A stretch of DNA of 64,000 nt. Origin: Flavobacterium sp. J27 (GTDB lineage Bacteria; Bacteroidota; Bacteroidia; Flavobacteriales; Flavobacteriaceae). The translations under genes were made by a program, and so were the position numbers. Where the stretch lies: contig NZ_PJQW01000005.1 of assembly GCF_004303025.1 (NCBI RefSeq), positions 236,456 to 300,455 of the forward strand. Reading direction: 5' to 3'. This document shows positions 50,619-62,217 of the stretch, one piece after another (within the stretch, counting starts at the first letter, position 1; the number at the start of each line of letters is the position of its first letter). Under the pieces are notes generated by a model. The model saw only the letters and a program-made list of their open reading frames with translations. It had not been told where the DNA came from and ran no database searches.

Positions 50619-50643
50619 TATCTTTGCGTATTATATACACGTT
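50619..50643 (+). promoter_or_regulatory. nrtR promoter -7 box with operator O1
   Basis: TATCTTTG (50619-50626) matches the -7 element. It overlaps an imperfect dyad TTTGCGTATTATATACACG (50623-50641) whose 21-bp frame matches the prs operator O3 at 14 positions. The site ends 3 bp before the nrtR start codon, suggesting autoregulation and a very short leader. Confidence 0.65.
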
Positions 50644-50646
50644 TTT

Positions 50647-51342
50647 ATGTCTGCAAATCATCAAAATATAAGAATAGCAGTAGATGCTGTTGTTTTTGGC
50701 TACCAAAAATCAAAATTATATGTACTATTAATCCAACAAAAATTTGGGAGTCAAAATACCTATTGGGCTTTGCCAGGAGGTTTGGTACAAGAAGATGAAA
50801 CGCTTATAGAAGCGGTAAAAAGAGAACTTAAAGAAGAAACCAATGTAGGGGTAAACTATTTGGAACAATTATACACCTTTGGTGATGATATAACTCGCGA
50901 TCCTAGAAATAGAGTTGTTTCGGTTGCTTATTTTGCTTTGGTTGATCCTTCTAAACTTACTTTAATTGCCGATACTGATGCTGATCATGTTTCTTGGGTG
51001 GAAGTTGATAAAATGCCTAATTTAGCTTTTGATCATAACGAAATTGTGCAAATGGGTTTGCAAAGACTTAAAAACAAACTTACCTATCAACCTATTGGTT
51101 TTGACTTATTGCCTCAAAAATTTCTATTTTCTCAACTAGAGAATTTATATACGACTATTATTGGTAAAGAAATTGACCGTCGTAATTTTAGAAAAAAAAT
51201 GATGAGTTTTGGTTTTATAATAGAAACTGATGAATTTGCCAACAAAAAAACAGGTCGCCCAGCCAAGTTATATACTTTTAATGTTTCTGAGTATAAACGC
51301 CTTGAAAAAGAGGGAATTCACTTTGAAATAAAATTAGTGTAA
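50647..51342 (+). CDS. nrtR: NrtR-type Nudix transcriptional regulator of NAD metabolism
   Basis: 231 aa. An N-terminal Nudix domain (10-150) with the box GLVQEDETLIEAVKRELKEE, in which the final Gly of the consensus is replaced by Asn (ETNV), so catalysis may be weak. The C-terminal 75 residues form a winged helix with RRNFRKKMMSFGFI and KKTGRPAKLYTF, the NrtR DNA-binding element. NrtR proteins repress NAD salvage genes and release DNA on binding ADP-ribose. Here it precedes prs, and three matching dyads lie at the two promoters. It is the likely sensor for the downstream ADP-ribose island. Confidence 0.9.
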   Translation: MSANHQNIRIAVDAVVFGYQKSKLYVLLIQQKFGSQNTYWALPGGLVQEDETLIEAVKRELKEETNVGVNYLEQLYTFGDDITRDPRNRVVSVAYFALVDPSKLTLIADTDADHVSWVEVDKMPNLAFDHNEIVQMGLQRLKNKLTYQPIGFDLLPQKFLFSQLENLYTTIIGKEIDRRNFRKKMMSFGFIIETDEFANKKTGRPAKLYTFNVSEYKRLEKEGIHFEIKLV

Positions 51343-51354
51343 AAAAAACACAAA
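51334..51354 (+). promoter_or_regulatory. Operator O2, overlapping the nrtR stop codon
   Basis: TTAGTGT-N7-ACACAAA, identical to O3 at 19 of 21 positions and located 55 bp upstream of it. The nrtR stop (51340-51342) lies within it. Next to it is another perfect dyad ACAAAAT-AAT-ATTTTGT (51350-51366). Confidence 0.65.
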
Positions 51355-51361
51355 ATAATAT

Positions 51362-51409
51362 TTTGTCAGAAAAAAATTAAATCATACATTTGTGTAAAAT
51401 AAACACAAA
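51362..51409 (+). promoter_or_regulatory. prs promoter and operator O3
   Basis: A -33 element TTTG (51362-51365) is followed after 19 bp by the -7 box TACATTTG (51385-51392). O3 at 51389-51409 is a perfect dyad TTTGTGT-N7-ACACAAA that covers the end of the -7 box and the expected transcription start, as expected for a repressor site. The prs ATG is 4 bp downstream. Confidence 0.75.
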
Positions 51410-51413
51410 TACT

Positions 51414-52244
51414 ATGATTCTTAACTTAGACCCTCATTTTGCACCACTTGGCATTCAAAATACAATTGCATTTCAAAGTTTTGTTTTTTCTGGTGGTGAG
51501 CCGCATATAAAAATTACAGCTGATTTTAGCACTACGCAAACCGTTTGTGTTACGCATAGACTCAATTCTTTTGCAGACTTAGGTTTGTTTTGTTTGGCAA
51601 TAGATGCTTTACGAAGAATGGGTGTTCAAAAGATTACCGCAGTAGTACCATACTTTCCTGCAGCAAGACAAGATCGTGTAATGATTCCTGGTGAACCTTT
51701 ATCTGTAAAAGTGTATGCAGATATTATCAATGCTTTGCAACTAGAAAGTATTCACGTTTTTGATCCTCATTCTGAAGTAACACCAGCGGTTTTAAACAAC
51801 TGTAAAGTGATTCCTAATTATCAATTTATTCAAGAAGTTATTCAGAAAATTGGAAACGAAGTTTTATTGATTTCTCCAGATGGTGGCGCTTTAAAGAAAA
51901 TCTATAAAGTATCTGAATTTCTAGGAGGTGTTGAGGTAGTGGAATGCAGTAAAAGTAGAGATGTGAAAACAGGAAAATTATCTGGTTTTAAAGTGTATTC
52001 AGAAGATTTGGAAGGGAAAGATTGTTTAATTGTAGACGATATATGCGATGGTGGAGGCACTTTTATTGGTTTAGCTGAAGAACTGAAAAATAAAAATGCC
52101 GGTCGCTTATACTTAGCAGTGAGTCATGGGATATTCAATAAAGGTTTTGAGAGCCTTCAAGTTTTTGAACGCATTTTTACAACCAATTCTTTTAAAGATA
52201 TCGAAAACGAAAAAGTAGAAGTAATTCAATTAGAAGTAAAGTAA
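51414..52244 (+). CDS. Short ribose-phosphate pyrophosphokinase paralogue
   Basis: 276 aa from ATG 51414; a TTG at 51390 would start inside the operator and is rejected. It is shorter than housekeeping Prs (about 315). It keeps the ATP-loop element YFPAARQDRVM, the DPHS metal motif and the PRPP loop CLIVDDICDGGGTF. The usual early FxDGE motif is replaced by FSGGE. NrtR operons often carry such a Prs to make PRPP for nicotinamide salvage. The similar phage enzyme Adps pyrophosphorylates ADP-ribose, and given this context that activity is a possible alternative. Confidence 0.88.
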   Translation: MILNLDPHFAPLGIQNTIAFQSFVFSGGEPHIKITADFSTTQTVCVTHRLNSFADLGLFCLAIDALRRMGVQKITAVVPYFPAARQDRVMIPGEPLSVKVYADIINALQLESIHVFDPHSEVTPAVLNNCKVIPNYQFIQEVIQKIGNEVLLISPDGGALKKIYKVSEFLGGVEVVECSKSRDVKTGKLSGFKVYSEDLEGKDCLIVDDICDGGGTFIGLAEELKNKNAGRLYLAVSHGIFNKGFESLQVFERIFTTNSFKDIENEKVEVIQLEVK

Positions 52245-52327: not shown

Positions 52328-53179
52328 ATGATTTTAGAAGCAGCAATAGGAGACGCTTACGGAGCAGGTTTTGAATTTCAAGGCGCACATTATATTGAAA
52401 AAAACAACAAATTACTTCAATACCATAAACATGGATTATATTCAGAAATCTATAAAAAGTATACAGACGATACTCAAATGGCAATTGCTATTACAGAACT
52501 GTTACTAGAAGAAGATAACTGGAGTATTGAAAAAGTAGCTGATAAGTTTGTAACGGCTTTTCATAGAGACAAGAGAAGAGGGTATTCTGATCGGGTTTAC
52601 AATGCACTTGATGCGAGTACAAACGGTCATGAGTTTATTAGTAATCTAACTTTTCAAAGTACAGGTAATGGATCTGCAATGAGAGCTTATCCAATTGGTT
52701 ATATTAAGGATATAGAAAAAATGTTATCTTTTTGTGAAATTCAAGCAAGAACATCTCACAATACTGAAGAAGGAATTCTATGCGCTAAAAGAATTGCATT
52801 AGCCGTGCATTTTTATCGATATGATTATGATAAAAAAACGGATTTAATCTCTTTCTTGAATGAAACTTTAAAAGAAGATGAAGTTTACGAGGTGGTTTCG
52901 CCAATAGATATGCACGGTTATCCCACTACTAAAGCGGTAATAAAAATTGTGTCAGAAGCTACTTCAATGGAAGAATGTTTAAAATATGGAATCGATTTTG
53001 GTGGAGATACCGATACAGTGGCAGCTTTGTGTATGGCCATTTTAAGTCAGAAAAAAGATTGTGAAAAAAGGTTACCTACTTTTTTATTTGACGAATTAGA
53101 AAATGGCAAGTTTGGAAAAACGTATTTAATGGAACTGGATGAGAAATTAGAACAAAAATTCCTATTAAATACAGAATAG
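52328..53179 (+). CDS. ADP-ribosylglycohydrolase (ARH/DraG family), first copy
   Basis: 283 aa, all-helical ARH fold. Metal-binding signatures are complete: the N-terminal AIGDAYGAGFE, TDDTQ (Thr46, Asp47, Asp48) and the C-terminal GGDTDT (Asp227 and Asp229), plus NGSAMRAYPIG near 119. ARH enzymes hydrolyse ADP-ribose from arginine or serine on proteins, or O-acetyl-ADP-ribose. First gene of a long same-strand series; a PARG gene follows after 13 bp. Confidence 0.93.
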   Translation: MILEAAIGDAYGAGFEFQGAHYIEKNNKLLQYHKHGLYSEIYKKYTDDTQMAIAITELLLEEDNWSIEKVADKFVTAFHRDKRRGYSDRVYNALDASTNGHEFISNLTFQSTGNGSAMRAYPIGYIKDIEKMLSFCEIQARTSHNTEEGILCAKRIALAVHFYRYDYDKKTDLISFLNETLKEDEVYEVVSPIDMHGYPTTKAVIKIVSEATSMEECLKYGIDFGGDTDTVAALCMAILSQKKDCEKRLPTFLFDELENGKFGKTYLMELDEKLEQKFLLNTE

Positions 53180-53192
53180 AATATAATAATTA

Positions 53193-54023
53193 ATGTTTGA
53201 AAGAAAGAATGTTATGACGAATAGAGGTATGGCTAAAGACACTTTAGCAATTTTAGAAAAAAGAGCATATAAAAATAGAGAAGGAAACCTAGTTAATATA
53301 AGTAAAAGTTTAGATAATTGTCTAAAGAATACGGTTTTTTATTCTGCAAATAAACTAGAGGAACTTCTAGAAAATCAAGAAATTGAATCGAAATTTGAGA
53401 CAGTTTTTGAAGTAGTAAAGAGTACGACTTTAACCGCAATTTTAAAAATAGTTGAAACAGAAGGTTCAAATAAAGTAATGTGTTTGAATTTTGCCTCAGC
53501 AAAGAATCCAGGTGGTGGTTTTATCTCTGGAGCTGAAGCGCAAGAAGAAAGTTTAGCTAGAACTTCTGCATTGTATAGTAGTCAATTACAAGCAAGAGTT
53601 TTTTACGATACCCACAGAAATATGAAATCATGTATGTATACAGATGGAATGATTTACAGTCCACAAACCCCTGTTTTTAGAAAGGATAGAGGTGAATTAT
53701 TAAAACAACCAATGTATTGTAATTTCATTACTTCTGCAGCAGTAAATGCTGGTGTCGTTAAAAGGCAAGAACCTGAATTAGAAAATGAGATTGAAGTTGT
53801 AATGAGGCGAAGAATAGATAAAATGTTGGCGTTATCCTTAAGTAAAGGAAATGAAGTCTTGATTTTGGGTGCATGGGGTTGTGGTGTGTTTAGGAATGAA
53901 CCTCAAATGATTGCATCACTATTTAAAGAGCATTTACGAGGCAAATACAAGGGTGCATTTAAAAAAATCATTTTTGCAATTTATACTAAGAATGAGGATT
54001 TGTTAAAAACATTTGAAATGTAA
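53193..54023 (+). CDS. Microbial poly(ADP-ribose) glycohydrolase (TIGR02452/DUF2263)
   Basis: 276 aa. The PARG catalytic loop NPGGGFISGAEAQEESLAR (about 105-123) contains GGG and the QEE pair, the diagnostic motif of bacterial-type PARG. The N-terminal part (TNRGMAKDTLAILE) and the later LILGAWGCGVFRNEP also fit the family, which has a macrodomain-like fold. It removes ADP-ribose, including chains, from targets. The stop shares one base with the ATG of the next gene, indicating translational coupling. Confidence 0.92.
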   Translation: MFERKNVMTNRGMAKDTLAILEKRAYKNREGNLVNISKSLDNCLKNTVFYSANKLEELLENQEIESKFETVFEVVKSTTLTAILKIVETEGSNKVMCLNFASAKNPGGGFISGAEAQEESLARTSALYSSQLQARVFYDTHRNMKSCMYTDGMIYSPQTPVFRKDRGELLKQPMYCNFITSAAVNAGVVKRQEPELENEIEVVMRRRIDKMLALSLSKGNEVLILGAWGCGVFRNEPQMIASLFKEHLRGKYKGAFKKIIFAIYTKNEDLLKTFEM

Positions 54024-54997
54024 TGAAAACAACAACAATACATAGTGCTTTATTTGGTGTGGCTGTAGGAGATGCTTTAGGTGTTCCAGTAGAGTTTAAG
54101 TCTAGGGAGTATCTTAAAAACAATCCTGTTATTAACATGCAAGAATTTGGGACACATCATCAACCTCTTGGAACTTGGAGCGATGATAGTTCCTTAACGT
54201 TTTGTTTAGCGGAGAGTTTATGTCATGGGTATAATATCAATAAGATTGCCAATAATTTTGTGCTTTGGCGCCAAGAACAGCTTTGGACACCACATGGTCG
54301 GGTTTTTGATATTGGAATAGCAACAAATTCTGCCATACATTCAATAGAAAGTGGAATAAAACCTCTTTTAGCAGGAGGAACTTCGGAAAGAGATAATGGT
54401 AATGGTTCTTTAATGCGAATGTTACCATTGTTGTTTTATGTGAAGGATTTTAGTATAACAAAGAGGTTTGACACTGTAAAAGAAGTTTCTTCCATAACAC
54501 ATGCTCACATTAGATCAGTAATAGCTTGTTTTATCTATATAGAATATGCTTTATTGCTTTTAGAAGGAAAAAATAAAGAAGAAGCTTTCGAAGGAATGAA
54601 AGAAAAAGTAAATGGTTTTCTATTTAATAATCCTATTTGTTCGCAAGCAGAAATAGACAAATTTCATAGAGTTTTAGAAAACCAAATTGGAGACTATGAA
54701 CTAGTCTGGTTAGCTGAATTAAAAGAAAAAGAGATTAGTTCTGGAGGTTATGTTTTGGATAGTTTAGAAGCCAGTTTGTGGTGTGTGCTTACCTCTAGTA
54801 GTTATTCTGAAACAGTTTTAAAAGCAGTAAATTTAGGAAGTGATACCGATACTACAGCTGCTATTGCAGGTGGTTTAGCTGGATTATTATATGGTTACGA
54901 AAGTATTCCACAAGAATGGATAACCGTTTTAGCAAGAAAAGAAGATATCACAATTTTATGTGATCAAATGAGTGAGAAATATGAAGTACACAATTGA
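54023..54997 (+). CDS. ADP-ribosylglycohydrolase, second copy
   Basis: 324 aa. Distinct from the first ARH but with the same metal motifs: GVAVGDALGVPVEF near 10-23, WSDDSS near 52-57, DNGNGSLMRMLPL near 125, and LGSDTDTTAA near 275. Longer than the first copy and with the Ser in place of Thr at the first metal-site motif. Two different ARHs side by side suggest different target bonds. Overlaps the PARG gene by one base and the NADAR gene by 17 bp. Confidence 0.92.
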   Translation: MKTTTIHSALFGVAVGDALGVPVEFKSREYLKNNPVINMQEFGTHHQPLGTWSDDSSLTFCLAESLCHGYNINKIANNFVLWRQEQLWTPHGRVFDIGIATNSAIHSIESGIKPLLAGGTSERDNGNGSLMRMLPLLFYVKDFSITKRFDTVKEVSSITHAHIRSVIACFIYIEYALLLLEGKNKEEAFEGMKEKVNGFLFNNPICSQAEIDKFHRVLENQIGDYELVWLAELKEKEISSGGYVLDSLEASLWCVLTSSSYSETVLKAVNLGSDTDTTAAIAGGLAGLLYGYESIPQEWITVLARKEDITILCDQMSEKYEVHN

Positions 54998-55478
54998 AAA
55001 ATTAATTTCCGAATTTGAAAAAGGAAAAAGAAATAAGTATGTCTTTTTTTGGGGACACCAAAAGAGTAAAAATAATGAAATAACAGCAAGTTGTTTTAGT
55101 CAATGGTGGATTGCTCCTTTTGAAGTTGAAGGTGTTGTTTATCCTTCTGCAGAACATTGGATGATGGCACAAAAAGCAATGCTATTCGATGATTTGGAAC
55201 AGTACAAAAGAATAATTGAAGCAAAATCACCTGCAGAAGCTAAAGCAATTGGAAGGCAAGTACATAATTTTAATCAAACTATATGGTTAGAAAAAAGAGG
55301 CGAAATAGTAATTCAAGGCAATCTTCATAAGTTTACTCAAAATAAAGTGTTAAAAGAATTTTTATTAAACACGAAAGAAAGAGTGCTAGTAGAAGCCAGT
55401 CCAGTCGATGCAATTTGGGGGATTGGTTTAACAGCTGATCATGAAATTCAAAGAATCCTAAATTATGGAAAGGATTAA
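54981..55478 (+). CDS. NADAR (YbiA-like) family protein, first copy
   Basis: 165 aa from ATG 54981 (a GTG at 54972 is possible). Family features: FSQWWIAPFEVEG, YPSAEHWMMAQKAMLF, AIGRQVHNFNQTIWLEKR, HKFTQNKVLKEFLL and the closing SPVDAIWGIGL. NADAR domains were predicted to act in NAD/ADP-ribose metabolism. More recent work shows that some remove ADP-ribose from guanine bases in DNA, and YbiA cleaves riboflavin intermediates. The ADP-ribose setting favours the former. A second NADAR lies two genes on. Confidence 0.92.
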   Translation: MKYTIEKLISEFEKGKRNKYVFFWGHQKSKNNEITASCFSQWWIAPFEVEGVVYPSAEHWMMAQKAMLFDDLEQYKRIIEAKSPAEAKAIGRQVHNFNQTIWLEKRGEIVIQGNLHKFTQNKVLKEFLLNTKERVLVEASPVDAIWGIGLTADHEIQRILNYGKD

Positions 55479-56094: not shown

Positions 56095-56541
56095 ATGAAT
56101 AATGCAAAAGAAGAAATAAAGTTTTATAGTGAACTAGGATACTATGGTGAATTTTCAAACTTTGCCAATTATCCTGTAAGACTAAATGGTCAGGTATGGC
56201 AAACTGCAGAACATTATTTTCAAGCTCAAAAATTCGAAAATAAAGCGTATCAAAATAAGATAGCCAATGCACTCACACCAATGAAAGCTGCAGAATTAGG
56301 AAGAAGTAGAAAGGAAAAAATAAAAATGAATTGGGATAAAAAGAAAGATAATGTCATGTATGAGGTTATCAAAGCCAAGTTTATGCAACATGAGGAGTTA
56401 AGAAGTTTATTAGTTGGAACTAATAATGCAATTATTGTTGAACATACTGAAAATGATGCGTACTGGGGAGACGGTGGAAATGGAAAGGGCAAAAATAAAT
56501 TAGGAAAAATTTTAATGAAGGTTAGAGAGGAATTAAAATGA
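56095..56541 (+). CDS. NADAR family protein, second copy
   Basis: 148 aa. Closer to the short YbiA type: GYYGEFSNFANYPVRLNG, WQTAEHYFQAQKF, AAELGRSRKEKI, VMYEVIKAKFMQHEELRSLL and the end NDAYWGDGGNGKGKNKLG. All conserved positions look intact, including the Glu-His pair of AEHYF. It differs clearly from the first NADAR, so the two are probably not a recent duplication. It overlaps the DUF4291 gene by 4 bp (ATGA). Confidence 0.93.
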   Translation: MNNAKEEIKFYSELGYYGEFSNFANYPVRLNGQVWQTAEHYFQAQKFENKAYQNKIANALTPMKAAELGRSRKEKIKMNWDKKKDNVMYEVIKAKFMQHEELRSLLVGTNNAIIVEHTENDAYWGDGGNGKGKNKLGKILMKVREELK

Positions 56542-57151: not shown

Positions 57152-57568
57152 ATGAAAACAACAACTTTATACAGACCAGTGGGCTTAAGAGAAATGGAAT
57201 TAATTGCAGAAAGTAATTTCTCAGCTTTTCCACCTCGTTTGGAATGGCAACCTATTTTTTATCCAGTAATGAATCAGGAATATGCAGCACAAATCGCCAA
57301 AGAATGGAACACACCCGATGAATTTTCAAGTTATTGTGGCATAGTAACGGCTTTTGGAGTAGTTAGTGAGTATTTACAACAATTCGAAATTCAAAATGTA
57401 GGTGATAAAAACCATAACGAATTATGGATTCCATCAGAAGAATTAGAAACGTTCAATGAAAACATCGTTGGAGAAATTAAAATTGTACAAGTCTTTTATG
57501 GAGAAAAGTATAAACCTTCTCAAAATGAAACTTTGAATAAAAAATTATATAATAAAAATACTTTTTAG
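57152..57568 (+). CDS. 'ADP-ribosylation/crystallin J1' family small protein
   Basis: 138 aa. The start (TTTLYRPVGLREMELIAES), FPPRLEWQPIFYPVMNQEYA and the later NHNELWIPSEELETFNENIVG match the small family usually labelled 'ADP-ribosylation/crystallin J1'. Despite the label it is not an ARH; no metal-binding Asp motif is present. The activity is not established. It ends the first block of the island, before the second REP-like element. Confidence 0.8.
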   Translation: MKTTTLYRPVGLREMELIAESNFSAFPPRLEWQPIFYPVMNQEYAAQIAKEWNTPDEFSSYCGIVTAFGVVSEYLQQFEIQNVGDKNHNELWIPSEELETFNENIVGEIKIVQVFYGEKYKPSQNETLNKKLYNKNTF

Positions 57569-57674: not shown

Positions 57675-58364
57675 ATGAAGAAAATAGCAATATTAACAGG
57701 TGCAGGAATTAGTGCGGAAAGCGGAATTCAAACCTTTAGAGATGCGGATGGATTATGGAATAATCACAGAGTGGAAGATGTGGCTTCTCCAGAAGGATGG
57801 AGAAAAAATCGCGAATTAGTATTGGATTTTTACAATCAAAGAAGACAACAATTAAAACAAGTGGAACCTAATCAAGCACATCATTTAGTTAAACAACTAG
57901 AAGGTTATTTTGAAGTGCAAATCATTACTCAAAATATCGATGACTTGCATGAAAGAGCAGGTTCTAAAAATGTATTACACATTCATGGGGAGTTAAATAA
58001 AATGTGTTCTTCTTTGAACAGAAAATTAAGTTATGATTGCTTTGATGATATTAAAATTGGCGATAAAGCAACTGATGGTTCTCAGTTAAGACCTGATATT
58101 GTTTGGTTTGGAGAAGATGTGCCATTGTATCCTATTGCTGTCGAATTAGTAGCACAAGCAGATATTTTTATGGTAATCGGGACGTCTTTGCAAGTGTATC
58201 CAGCAGCTAATCTTTTGAACTTTATAAAAACCGATGCCCAACTCATCATTATCAACCCAGATCATGATGGAGGAAACTATGGGGGAAGAGCTATTTATGT
58301 CAAAGAAAAAGCTACAACTGGAATGCAAAAAGTATTTGATGTTTTGATAAAAGAAGCAAAATAG
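57675..58364 (+). CDS. Sir2-family NAD-dependent deacylase (class III)
   Basis: 229 aa. NAD-binding motifs GAGISAESGI (8-17) and TQNIDDLHERAG near 95, catalytic His in HIHGE near 114, and GTSLQVYPAA near 174. The zinc-ribbon cysteines are not retained as in classical sirtuins. FYNQRR near 55 provides the Tyr-x-x-Arg pair typical of SIRT5/CobB desuccinylases. The reaction releases nicotinamide and O-acyl-ADP-ribose, the latter a substrate for macrodomain and ARH enzymes encoded nearby. Confidence 0.93.
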   Translation: MKKIAILTGAGISAESGIQTFRDADGLWNNHRVEDVASPEGWRKNRELVLDFYNQRRQQLKQVEPNQAHHLVKQLEGYFEVQIITQNIDDLHERAGSKNVLHIHGELNKMCSSLNRKLSYDCFDDIKIGDKATDGSQLRPDIVWFGEDVPLYPIAVELVAQADIFMVIGTSLQVYPAANLLNFIKTDAQLIIINPDHDGGNYGGRAIYVKEKATTGMQKVFDVLIKEAK

Positions 58365-59424: not shown

Positions 59425-59895
59425 ATGAAAGAAATTCAATATGTAACAGGAGATGCAACAACTCCAATTGGGAATGATAACAGGATAATAGTTCATATAT
59501 GTAATGATATAGGAGGTTGGGGAAAAGGCTTTGTGATGGCGCTTTCAAAAAAATGGAAAACTCCAGAAAAGCAATATAGAGAATGGTTCAAATCCAAAGA
59601 AAATTTTGAATTAGGAGAGGTTCAATTTGTTGCTGTTGAAGAAGATATATGGGTGGCTAATATGATTGCGCAGCATAAAATTAATAGAGATCAAAAAGGT
59701 GAAGTGCCTATTCGTTATGAATCAGTAAAAAAAGCACTTGCCAAAGTCTCAGACTTTGCAAGAAACGAACAAGCATCCGTTCATATGCCAAGAATTGGCT
59801 GTGGATTAGCTGGTGGGAAATGGGAATGTATTGAACCTATTATTTTGGAAACACTTTCTAAAAAAGATGTTGAGGTAACAGTTTATGATTTTTAG
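59425..59895 (+). CDS. Macrodomain protein, ALC1/TARG1-like
   Basis: 156 aa. Ligand-binding elements: VTGDATTPI near 7, IVHICNDIGGWGKGFVMALS near 24-43, MIAQHKI, and the loop PRIGCGLAGGKWECIEPII near 122. This is the layout of TARG1/OARD1 or Poa1-type macrodomains, which deacylate O-acetyl-ADP-ribose, remove ADP-ribose from glutamate or nucleic acids, or dephosphorylate ADP-ribose 1''-phosphate. First of three macrodomain genes here; the next begins 2 bp later. Confidence 0.92.
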   Translation: MKEIQYVTGDATTPIGNDNRIIVHICNDIGGWGKGFVMALSKKWKTPEKQYREWFKSKENFELGEVQFVAVEEDIWVANMIAQHKINRDQKGEVPIRYESVKKALAKVSDFARNEQASVHMPRIGCGLAGGKWECIEPIILETLSKKDVEVTVYDF

Positions 59896-59897
59896 GG

Positions 59898-60419
59898 ATG
59901 ATAATTAAGGTAAAACAAGCAGATATTACAACAATAAAAGTTGACGCCATCGTCAATGCCGCTAACACCTCTTTATTAGGAGGAAGCGGTGTAGATGGTG
60001 CCATTCATAAAGCAGGAGGAAATGCTATTTTAGAAGCATGTATGGTTATAAGAAACAAACAAGGTGGTTGTAAAGTAGGTGAAGCGGTTATTACTACTGC
60101 TGGAAATTTGCCTTCAAAATATGTCATACATACCGTTGGACCAGTTTGGAATGGCGATAAAGAGGAGAAAAGAAAACTGTTAGCCAATTGTTATGTAAAT
60201 GCATTGCAAATAGCTGAAGAAAATGGAGTAAAAACAATTGTTTTTCCTAATATAAGTACCGGGATTTATGGGTTTCCAAAGAAAGAAGCAGCTCAAATAG
60301 TCATCGATACAGTTCAAAAATTTTCAATTAAGAACATAGAAGAAATTACGTTTGTATGCTTTGATGAGGGAAATTACATGTTATACAAACAACTGTTAAA
60401 AATTAAAAATGAAAATTAA
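59898..60419 (+). CDS. Macrodomain protein, MacroD/YmdB-like O-acetyl-ADP-ribose deacetylase
   Basis: 173 aa. MacroD-type signature: KQADITTIKVDAIVNAANTS (ligand Asp and Asn), LLGGSGVDGAIHKAGG as the first loop, GEAVITTAGNLPSKYVIHTV and the second loop STGIYGFPKKEAA. It should hydrolyse O-acetyl-ADP-ribose and ADP-ribosyl-Glu/Asp. The sirtuin three genes upstream produces that substrate. Overlaps the next gene by 11 bp. Confidence 0.95.
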   Translation: MIIKVKQADITTIKVDAIVNAANTSLLGGSGVDGAIHKAGGNAILEACMVIRNKQGGCKVGEAVITTAGNLPSKYVIHTVGPVWNGDKEEKRKLLANCYVNALQIAEENGVKTIVFPNISTGIYGFPKKEAAQIVIDTVQKFSIKNIEEITFVCFDEGNYMLYKQLLKIKNEN

Positions 60420-61069: not shown

Positions 61070-61612
61070 ATGAATGAAAATATAATAAAAAGCACAAGTA
61101 AATTCCTTAGTTTAGTACTAAGGCATGCACCAGAAAAAATAGCCTTAACTCTAGATGAAAACGGATGGGCAAATGTAGAGGAACTTATTATTCAATGTAA
61201 TAAATTCCATAAGAAATTAGATCATGCGCTATTGGATTACGTAGTAGAAAACAATGATAAAAAAAGATTCGCTTTCAATGAAGACAAAACCAAAATAAGA
61301 GCGAGTCAAGGGCATTCCATTTCAGTCGAATTAGAATTGAAAGAAATCGAACCTATTCATTTTTTATACCACGGAACAGTGGATAAATTTTTGCCAGCCA
61401 TTCGAAAAGAAGGCTTGCTAAAAATGAGCCGACAACACGTACATTTGAGTCAAGATAGAGAAACAGCTATAAAAGTTGGCAGTAGAAGAGGAAAACCTGT
61501 TATTTTAAGTATCAATGCACCTAAAATGCATGCAGATGGCTATTCTTTTTATGTGTCAGAAAACGGAGTTTGGTTAACCGATCAAGTACCAGCAGAATAT
61601 ATAGAATTTTAA
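61070..61612 (+). CDS. kptA: RNA 2'-phosphotransferase (Tpt1/KptA)
   Basis: 180 aa. KptA landmarks: SKFLSLVLRHAPEKIAL near 10, a winged N-domain with ENGWANVEELI, and the NAD-binding C-domain with FLYHGTVDKFLPAIRKEGL, SRQHVHLS and a closing YFVSENGVWLTD-like segment. The enzyme uses NAD+ to remove an internal RNA 2'-phosphate, releasing nicotinamide and ADP-ribose 1'',2''-cyclic phosphate. Some KptA proteins also ADP-ribosylate RNA or DNA 5' ends. It is the clearest ADP-ribosyl-transferring enzyme of this island. Confidence 0.94.
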   Translation: MNENIIKSTSKFLSLVLRHAPEKIALTLDENGWANVEELIIQCNKFHKKLDHALLDYVVENNDKKRFAFNEDKTKIRASQGHSISVELELKEIEPIHFLYHGTVDKFLPAIRKEGLLKMSRQHVHLSQDRETAIKVGSRRGKPVILSINAPKMHADGYSFYVSENGVWLTDQVPAEYIEF

Positions 61613-61614
61613 AC

Positions 61615-62217
61615 ATGTTACAAGTTAAATTAGTTTACAGAGAAGAAGCATTAGGCAACGCTTGGAAAGAAGATTTTAAAGATTGTCCAAATGTAGAAAT
61701 CATAGGACAAGATATTTTAGAAGTTCCTTGCGATGCTATTGTTAGTCCGGCCAATTCTTTTGGTTTTATGGATGGTGGATTGGATTTACATATTTCTGAG
61801 AAATTAGGTTGGCATTTACAAGAAAAGTTACAAGCTCAAATTGCTCAATTAGATGAAAAGGAATTACTCATTGGAAAATCTATTACGCTTACTACAGGAA
61901 ATGATACCATTCCATATTTAATTTCTGCACCTACAATGAGAGTACCTATGAGTTTTAATATTGAAACTTCTGTAAATGCTTATTTAGCTATGAAAGCGAT
62001 TCTAATAGCTTGTAAAAACAATGAAGCTATTAAGACGGTAGCTATTCCTGGTTTGTGTACAGGCTGTGGACGAATGCCTTTTATTATTGCATCCAATCAA
62101 ATGTTTTTAGCTTACGATGAAATAATTAATGAAAATTACAAAGACTATCAAACATTTGGAGACACACAAAAGTTTCAATACAGATTAAATGAAAAGGGAT
62201 TAATTTGGGATTATTAA
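61615..62217 (+). CDS. Macrodomain protein, third copy (Appr-1''-p-processing-like)
   Basis: 200 aa from ATG 61615, 2 bp after the kptA stop; the longer frame from 61570 is rejected. VEIIGQDILEVPCDAIVSPANSF-like first strand (split here as IGQDILEVPCDAIVSP and ANSFGFMDGG) and the second loop IPGLCTGCGRMPFIIAS mark a macrodomain, with SAPTMRVPMSF between. Position right after kptA suggests it handles ADP-ribose 1''-phosphate or its cyclic form. A phosphatase gene follows immediately. Confidence 0.9.
   Translation: MLQVKLVYREEALGNAWKEDFKDCPNVEIIGQDILEVPCDAIVSPANSFGFMDGGLDLHISEKLGWHLQEKLQAQIAQLDEKELLIGKSITLTTGNDTIPYLISAPTMRVPMSFNIETSVNAYLAMKAILIACKNNEAIKTVAIPGLCTGCGRMPFIIASNQMFLAYDEIINENYKDYQTFGDTQKFQYRLNEKGLIWDY

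Follow-up and report, generated by a model that had tools for sequence, protein, structure and literature searches.

A putative NrtR switch with conserved paired operators at a predicted chromosomal NARP1 and ADP-ribose-processing island of Flavobacterium sp. J27

The question raised by this locus is which regulator recognizes the dyads around the gene nrtR and what is controlled through them. The window, a stretch of 64,000 nucleotides of the genome of Flavobacterium sp. J27, contains a gene for an NrtR-type protein (nrtR, 50647–51342, + strand) followed by a gene annotated as a ribose-phosphate pyrophosphokinase of the 'prs' type (51414–52244, + strand), which probably encodes an ADP-ribose pyrophosphate synthetase and is called adps below. 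The preliminary description had reported a perfect dyad overlapping the −7 box of the target gene, a second site that spans the nrtR stop codon 55 bp further 5', and a third one at the −7 box of nrtR; re-reading of the sequence confirmed all three, with 0 mismatches, a 19/21 match and a 14/21 match, respectively. The perfect dyad, O1 (TTTGTGTAAAATAAACACAAA, 51389–51409; none of the dyads is assigned to a strand), covers the −7 box and the predicted start site of adps. O2 (TTAGTGTAAAAAAAACACAAA, 51334–51354), the 19/21 match to O1 at a start-to-start distance of 55 bp, spans the nrtR stop codon (the CDS ends at 51342) and is separated by 7 bp from the −33 box that follows for adps. O3 (TTTGCGTATTATATACACGTT, 50623–50643) has a left half-site perfectly matching TTTGYGT and a right half-site matching at 4/7 positions. 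It is located closely 5' of the nrtR ATG at 50647 and overlaps TATCTTTG (50619–50626, + strand), a −7 box of the TAnnTTTG type according to the Flavobacterium sigma-A consensus in the accessible text of PMC9723704; its sequence and its recurrence in orthologous loci make it a probable autoregulatory operator. O1 is also part of a longer inverted repeat (51380–51425), which includes the adps ATG; this extension was not evident by eye in the relatives inspected.

Counted in the 64-kb window alone with up to three mismatches, the dyad pattern gave 14 matches against 12.1 expected, which is not above chance; O1 and O2 were the two best of these 14 (0 and 1 mismatch). Genome-wide, matches with up to two mismatches (61 per strand) were below the reversed-pattern control (76), and three further sites with one mismatch in the genome of the strain (L004, L005, and L006) were all within open reading frames; we propose no distant member of the regulon. 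Since both counts sit at background, the significance of the dyads must come from relatives.

A search of 299 genomes of the family with the NrtR protein revealed 26 orthologous loci (L040–L065) outside the genome of the strain, with 53–69% identity. They belong to 25 genomes (26 with that of the strain) and are separated by a clean gap from the next paralogues, which had at most 42% identity. The consensus around these loci was TTTGYGT-N7-ACRCAAA. A site at the nrtR start was found in 21 of the 26 loci with up to two mismatches and in 15 with up to one; at two mismatches it was absent from L046, L055, L059, L064, and L065. A pair of sites downstream was present in 22/26 loci; of the others, L046 was left out of the count because its pair, at 52 bp, is weaker (3+1 mismatches), L062 had single sites only, and L064 and L065 had none. 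The dyads of the preliminary description thus proved to be conserved in orthologous nrtR–target regions, and the autoregulation proposed there appears likely from the nrtR-promoter site in the 21 loci. In the 497,539 bp of the 26 loci, all 64 sites with up to one mismatch were located at the starts of nrtR, adps, namat, or DRG2 or directly 3' of nrtR, the location windows around these gene starts being set by us; seven control patterns, in which the spacer was changed or the half-sites were scrambled, matched 0, 0, 1, 5, 0, 2, and 4 times in the same sequence. The exact pair pattern, with 47–59 bp allowed between the sites, was detected in 14 of the 299 family genomes and, phylum-wide, in 14 of 395 genomes, of which 13 belong to this genus and the remaining one to a different family within the class; the reversed-pattern control gave 0 in both searches. 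The genome of the strain is outside the 14 family genomes because O2 has one mismatch. In 28/29 of the pair loci fetched, the pair was immediately beside nrtR, adps, namat, or an SPFH gene; in the 29th (L276), it was ~1 kb from a NAMPT-type gene.

These data support an interpretation of the dyads as conserved operator-like elements linked to NrtR, and a palindrome conserved at the target promoter and at the regulator's own promoter agrees with membership in the NrtR family. As the 7-bp half-site is simple, another regulator might bind the dyads and the adjacent NrtR might be a coincidence. We consider this very improbable. An NrtR orthologue was encoded in all 14 exact-pair genomes of the family, being present in only 26 (own included) overall (hypergeometric P = 2.5e-17, a value only indicative because the genomes are not independent). 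Five paralogous NrtR loci, taken from many paralogues, had no site near nrtR. Moreover, the 7-nt spacer is the same as in the MsNrtR palindrome GTTTTCGA-N7-TCGAAAAC, as given in the accessible part of PMC6800001.

A function of the dyads as RNA hairpins, in a terminator or an attenuator, is scarcely credible. O1 with its flanks does fold at −10.8 kcal/mol (z −4.1). However, O2 and O3 folded no better than shuffles, none of the three dyads was in the terminator list, and the left half of O1 is upstream of the predicted transcription start, as O1 overlaps the −7 box. The hairpin reading was therefore rejected.

The pair follows the target gene and not nrtR. Among 80 named loci with Namat, the best 80 of 507, mostly from Flavobacterium and also from Pedobacter, Emticicia, and Tenacibaculum, nrtR was found in 65, adps in 74, and the pair in 72; the two loci with adps but without the pair (L088 and L123) contain only a part of adps, as the fetched stretch ends within it. 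Seven of these best 80 keep the pair with no nrtR within the stretch. In two genomes (G490 and G464), the pair is at adps and nrtR is not adjacent; a whole-genome search located the orthologue 6.6 kb from the pair (67% and 66% identity, respectively). Persistence of the pair where nrtR is not adjacent indicates that O2 is no accident of the last codons of nrtR, and its origin as a by-product of these C-terminal codons was rejected. Furthermore, L043 and L058 have the pair at the namat promoter, away from nrtR, and L051 and L151 have a single site before namat.

The preliminary description had also noted about five helical turns between the two sites of the target promoter, and this spacing recurs in relatives: all 97 pairs were at 50–56 bp, 75 of them at 52 bp, with 30–75 bp allowed. 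In a mixed set of 30 pairs, largely one per genus (L040–L065, L071, and the hand-picked L074 of the same genus, L135, L147, L148, and L151), distances were 50 bp (2 pairs), 52 bp (17), 53 bp (4), 54 bp (4), 55 bp (2), and 56 bp (1). The spacing in the window, 55 bp, is off the 52-bp mode, and its O3 is weak; both points count against the explanation preferred below. Conserved spacing was also observed at promoters away from nrtR, namely those of namat (L043, L058) and of an SPFH gene (L247).

Both sites of the pair are placed around the core promoter. TTTG at 51362–51365 (+ strand), 19 nt before the −7 box of adps, occupies what we take to be the position of a −33 element, and O2 ends 7 nt before it. 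The −7 box itself, TACATTTG (51385–51392, + strand), contributes its TTTG as the first TTTG of O1; for flavobacterial sigma-A, the available text of PMC9723704 gives this box as TAnnTTTG. For promoter and half-site counts, L044 and L050, which have no TA at the −7 position, were excluded from the mixed set, leaving 28 pairs. When gaps of 18–21 nt were tried, −33 TTTG was found with 4/4 letters in 20 of them and with 3/4 in 8, at 1–8 nt from the end of O2. Columns of the half-sites carried 1.73 and 1.79 bits compared with 0.70 in the spacer of the same 28 pairs, and in 15 pairs at 52 bp the half-sites were 88% and the spacers 49% identical; this contrast is partly built in because resemblance to the consensus served to select the pairs. 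The CG-type letter occurred in 38/56 outer and 19/56 inner half-sites (Fisher p 0.0006, uncorrected for relatedness), the inner ones preferring the AT-type letter (37/56), which hints at one symmetric complex.

Alternatively, the constant spacing might result from each site being tied to its own promoter element. O1 and O2 would then act independently and without dimer–dimer contact, O1 blocking the −7 box and O2 crowding the −33/alpha-CTD region, and the fixed positions of these elements would set the distance. The TTTG-like −33 element does fit between the sites in the 28 pairs, and none of the 97 pairs was at 40–43 or 61–64 bp, as free steps of a helical turn might give. On the other hand, a steric block would not require a fixed distance, but all 97 pairs are within 50–56 bp, and the outer CG-type and inner AT-type half-sites look as if they formed one symmetric unit. 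We give independent action real weight, although at less than an even chance.

The identification of the target as prs, a PRPP synthetase gene, probably does not hold: from the tree, the loop, and the Namat signature in the island, the gene most likely encodes Adps, the first NARP1 enzyme, predicted to phosphorylate ADP-ribose. In an unrooted tree, the protein of the window grouped with phage Adps, including that of SPbetaL1, and was split from 16 canonical Prs with 100/100 support (30 rows versus 16). The canonical Prs came from 14 of 24 fetched loci that passed the filter, and the 14 viral Adps rows were drawn from odd-numbered loci. The SPbetaL1 Adps, biochemically verified according to the portion of PMC12774641 at hand, is the only row of the tree known as such, and the protein of the window is only 33% identical to it. 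The genome also encodes a separate canonical Prs, on another contig (C5). Canonical PRPP synthetases bind the 5'-phosphate with a loop D-T-[GA]-G-T; the protein of the window has DDICDGGGT there and lacks the canonical motif. The canonical loop was found in 10/11 canonical rows, 1/109 rows of the island set, and 0/88 of the viral set; these counts contain repeated rows, and 3/88 viral rows gave no loop match. The lone canonical loop of the island set probably belongs to L145, whose protein received the adps label at 27% identity. Against the assignment to Adps, the protein of the window scored 139.7 with TIGR01251 (PRPP synthetase), above the cut-off of 113, and the verified SPbetaL1 Adps scored 106, below it. 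A second, divergent type of adps (29–37% identity to that of the window over most of its length) was observed in L053, L054, L056, L059, and L060, where the gene order is nrtR, namat, adps and the operators are 53–56 bp apart.

The partner enzyme is encoded in the same island ~13 kb downstream of adps, ~1.3 kb past the end of the window (L037:3389–4840). It was the single match of the NAPRTase family model in the whole genome, and this model detected neither a NadV nor a PncB apart from it. The protein is 56% identical to the SPbetaL1 Namat and 98% identical to that of Flavobacterium sp. 9AF (among the best 80 of 507 relatives), and scored 605 bits against chains of SPbetaL1 sequence (9w5x, 9w5w) compared with 236 bits against human Nampt (6e68). 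It carries GSFTYQYNTRD, equal to the sequence of the crystallised SPbetaL1 Namat and consistent with the signature that separates Namat from Nampt as defined in the accessible text of PMC12774641, and the stacking residue (SCL; Arg40 in SPbetaL1) is present, with KSR aligned to TSR. This signature was found in 17/17 loci with Namat (own included, with a split gene in L059) and in all 80 of the named loci, themselves chosen for their resemblance to Namat (best 80 of 507). Its function, the synthesis of NAD+ from ADPR-PP and nicotinamide, is most likely but predicted. Within ~10 kb, 16 of the 26 orthologous loci have adps and namat, 4 have adps only, and 6 have neither; L042, L044, and L050 contain just nrtR, adps, and namat among the genes looked for.

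Could the enzymes nevertheless be an ordinary PRPP synthetase and a nicotinamide phosphoribosyltransferase, serving salvage via NMN under real NrtR operators, as in classical NrtR regulons? NrtR, prs, and nadV are linked in proteobacteria. The NCBIfam names are ribose-phosphate diphosphokinase and nicotinate phosphoribosyltransferase, and the verified phage Namat is named likewise. Pfam prs domains were also matched by the island enzyme, and Namat uses PRPP as well in vitro, according to the part of PMC12774641 consulted. These points are opposed by the canonical Prs already present in the genome, by the absence of the D-T-G/A-G-T loop from the island enzyme, and by the conserved residues of the adenine-stacking clamp in Namat, so that ordinary salvage appears unlikely. 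With the Adps and Namat readings, the regulated unit would be a chromosomal NARP1 pathway (ADP-ribose and nicotinamide to NAD+) accompanied by ADP-ribosyl-hydrolase genes. NARP1 is best known as a phage counter-defence.

All genes of the island are on the + strand and, judging from the strand and the short gaps, are presumably co-transcribed as one transcript. Downstream of adps, the window encodes the ADP-ribosylglycohydrolases DRG1 (52328–53179; PF03747, 5e-32) and DRG2 (54023–54997; PF03747, 1e-73) with a microbial PARG between them (53193–54023; PF10021, 8e-48), two NADAR proteins (54984–55478 and 56095–56541; PF08719, 3e-44 and 7e-38, respectively), a Sir2 family protein (57675–58364; PF02146, 4e-45), a macrodomain protein (59898–60419; PF01661, 2e-49), an RNA 2'-phosphotransferase KptA/Tpt1 (61070–61612; PF01885, 4e-53), and a second macrodomain protein (61612–62217; PF01661, 4e-9). 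Two DUF4291 genes and others were also found in the island. An ORF at 59425–59895, macro-like by eye, had no Pfam match. A DarT-type writer was not found in the genome with PF14487, which counts against the explanation preferred below. Conserved small genes without a Pfam match are located at 57152–57568 of the window and at L037:1109–2310; those encoding hyp138, hyp111, and a 287-aa protein, the latter vWA-like by eye, recur across many NARP1 islands.

The regulator itself belongs to the NrtR family, with a Nudix-like domain fused to a winged helix: it matched NrtR_WHD with 86.9 bits (cut-off 27; 1e-24), as the single match of this model in the whole genome, and NUDIX with 71.6 bits (8e-20). 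The Nudix motif RELxEE is kept in this protein and in 26/26 orthologues and is not found in the five paralogue loci, which also lack the operators. According to the accessible text of PMC4666351, the Nudix motif of NrtRs is impaired; MsNrtR showed no ADP-ribose hydrolase activity. In PMC6800001, the prototypic NrtR is called bifunctional, a hydrolase and a repressor, in the part available. Because RELxEE is intact in all 26 orthologues, the NrtR of Flavobacterium could also hydrolyse its own ligand; this is a guess, and such a double function would have a precedent in the bifunctional prototype.

Three observations count against ADP-ribose as the ligand. The score of the protein with NF050029, the equivalog model of ADP-ribose-responsive NrtR, was 157.6 bits, far below the cut-off of 400, and we do not assign it to this equivalog. 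Its best PDB match was BtAraR (5bs6, 158 bits), SoNrtR reaching 100 bits. Finally, the position of SoNrtR Arg41, a residue contacting ADP-ribose according to the accessible text of PMC4666351, is Gln in the protein of the window and varies among orthologues.

Taken together, the best explanation, which we hold to be probable as a whole, is that NrtR dimers on O2 and O1 repress the adps–namat NARP1 island and that ADP-ribose or a relative releases them. The sites, their conservation and spacing, their overlap with the promoter, their tie to the NrtR orthologue, and the Namat signature are seen in the sequences themselves; from these, we infer NrtR binding, repression, and the ligand, as well as co-transcription of the island and the activities of Adps and the hydrolases. 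Two NrtR dimers would occupy O2 and O1, at a distance of about five helical turns, flanking the −33 element and covering the −7 box of adps, so that the core promoter would be enclosed and the island, including adps and namat, shut off. The weaker single operator O3 would provide autoregulation of nrtR. The ADP-ribosyl hydrolases of the island would release ADP-ribose; when this compound or a close relative accumulates, NrtR would leave the DNA, the recycling genes would be expressed, and Adps and Namat would convert ADP-ribose and nicotinamide to NAD+. With Adps as the target, ADP-ribose would be a substrate of the pathway as well as the presumed inducer. A bolder version, in which Bacteroidota retain phage-type NARP1 as a system of the host, controlled by an ADP-ribose-gated switch, and a symmetric NrtR complex of four subunits encloses the promoter, hydrolyses the signal, and resets, seems doubtful to us.

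NARP1 is not the only association of the regulator: six orthologous loci lack both adps and namat within ~10 kb, and three of these keep the pair 3' of nrtR, before DRG2 in L045 and before an SPFH gene in L057 and L063. Of the other three, L062 has single sites, and L064 and L065 have none. In L233 and L235, the same paired operator, located 3' of nrtR, likewise stands before an SPFH/Band 7 gene; so does the pair of L247, where nrtR was absent from the fetched stretch. In L233 and L235, a small gene follows the SPFH gene; in L233, it has a weak NAD-kinase match below the Pfam cut-off. The SPFH/Band 7 gene is a possible second target of NrtR.

In sum, the proposal of the preliminary description is partly supported and improved: a conserved double-operator NrtR switch is predicted to control a chromosomal island for NARP1 and the processing of ADP-ribose. 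The conserved regulator and operator pair indicate when bacteria would use NARP1, namely when ADP-ribose rises, for example after NADase attack or while ADP-ribose marks are being removed. The pair may also serve as a signature of regulated NARP1 where its enzymes are named PRPP synthetase and nicotinate phosphoribosyltransferase, and the natural role of NARP1 in bacteria becomes testable, cheaply, in the genus Flavobacterium.

Bacterial NARP1 activity is already published: the accessible part of PMC12774641 demonstrates it for Paenibacillus foliorum, where adps–namat is also chromosomal, whereas in our strain it is predicted. No dedicated regulator of the P. foliorum system is described in that part, the words Nudix, Flavobacter, and Bacteroid are absent from the main text of the paper, and the physiological role of NARP1 on bacterial chromosomes is left open there. 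The NARP1 preprint PMC13232231 never mentions NrtR, and in the open-licence literature we came across no paper that links NrtR operators to NARP1. With phage NARP1 (Adps–Namat of SPbetaL1), the island shares an Adps homologue and a Namat with the identical clamp signature; unlike it, the island is chromosomal, contains ADP-ribosyl hydrolases, and is located beside NrtR, and no NrtR-like ORF was found in the viral Namat loci examined (best 80 of 570). ARG-centred anti-ADP-ribosylation systems (PMC9503650) also have a Nudix transcription factor in their ADP-ribosylglycohydrolase islands, and such regulators were predicted there to sense ADP-ribose; in the text available, these systems are from actinobacteria, planctomycetes, and proteobacteria, no operators are proposed, and NARP1 is unmentioned. 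BtAraR of Bacteroides shares the NrtR-family fold, but it is an arabinose regulator with a degenerate Nudix motif according to the accessible text of PMC4666351, whereas the motif of our NrtR is intact. The NrtR regulons of S. oneidensis and M. smegmatis have the same Nudix–winged-helix protein beside NAD genes, and DNA binding of SoNrtR and MsNrtR is disrupted by ADP-ribose (accessible text of PMC4666351 and PMC6800001); the M. smegmatis palindrome has a 7-nt spacer, as here (PMC6800001, part available). In contrast to these classical regulons, the Flavobacterium system has another half-site, its two sites ~52 bp apart enclose the promoter, and its predicted target is NARP1.
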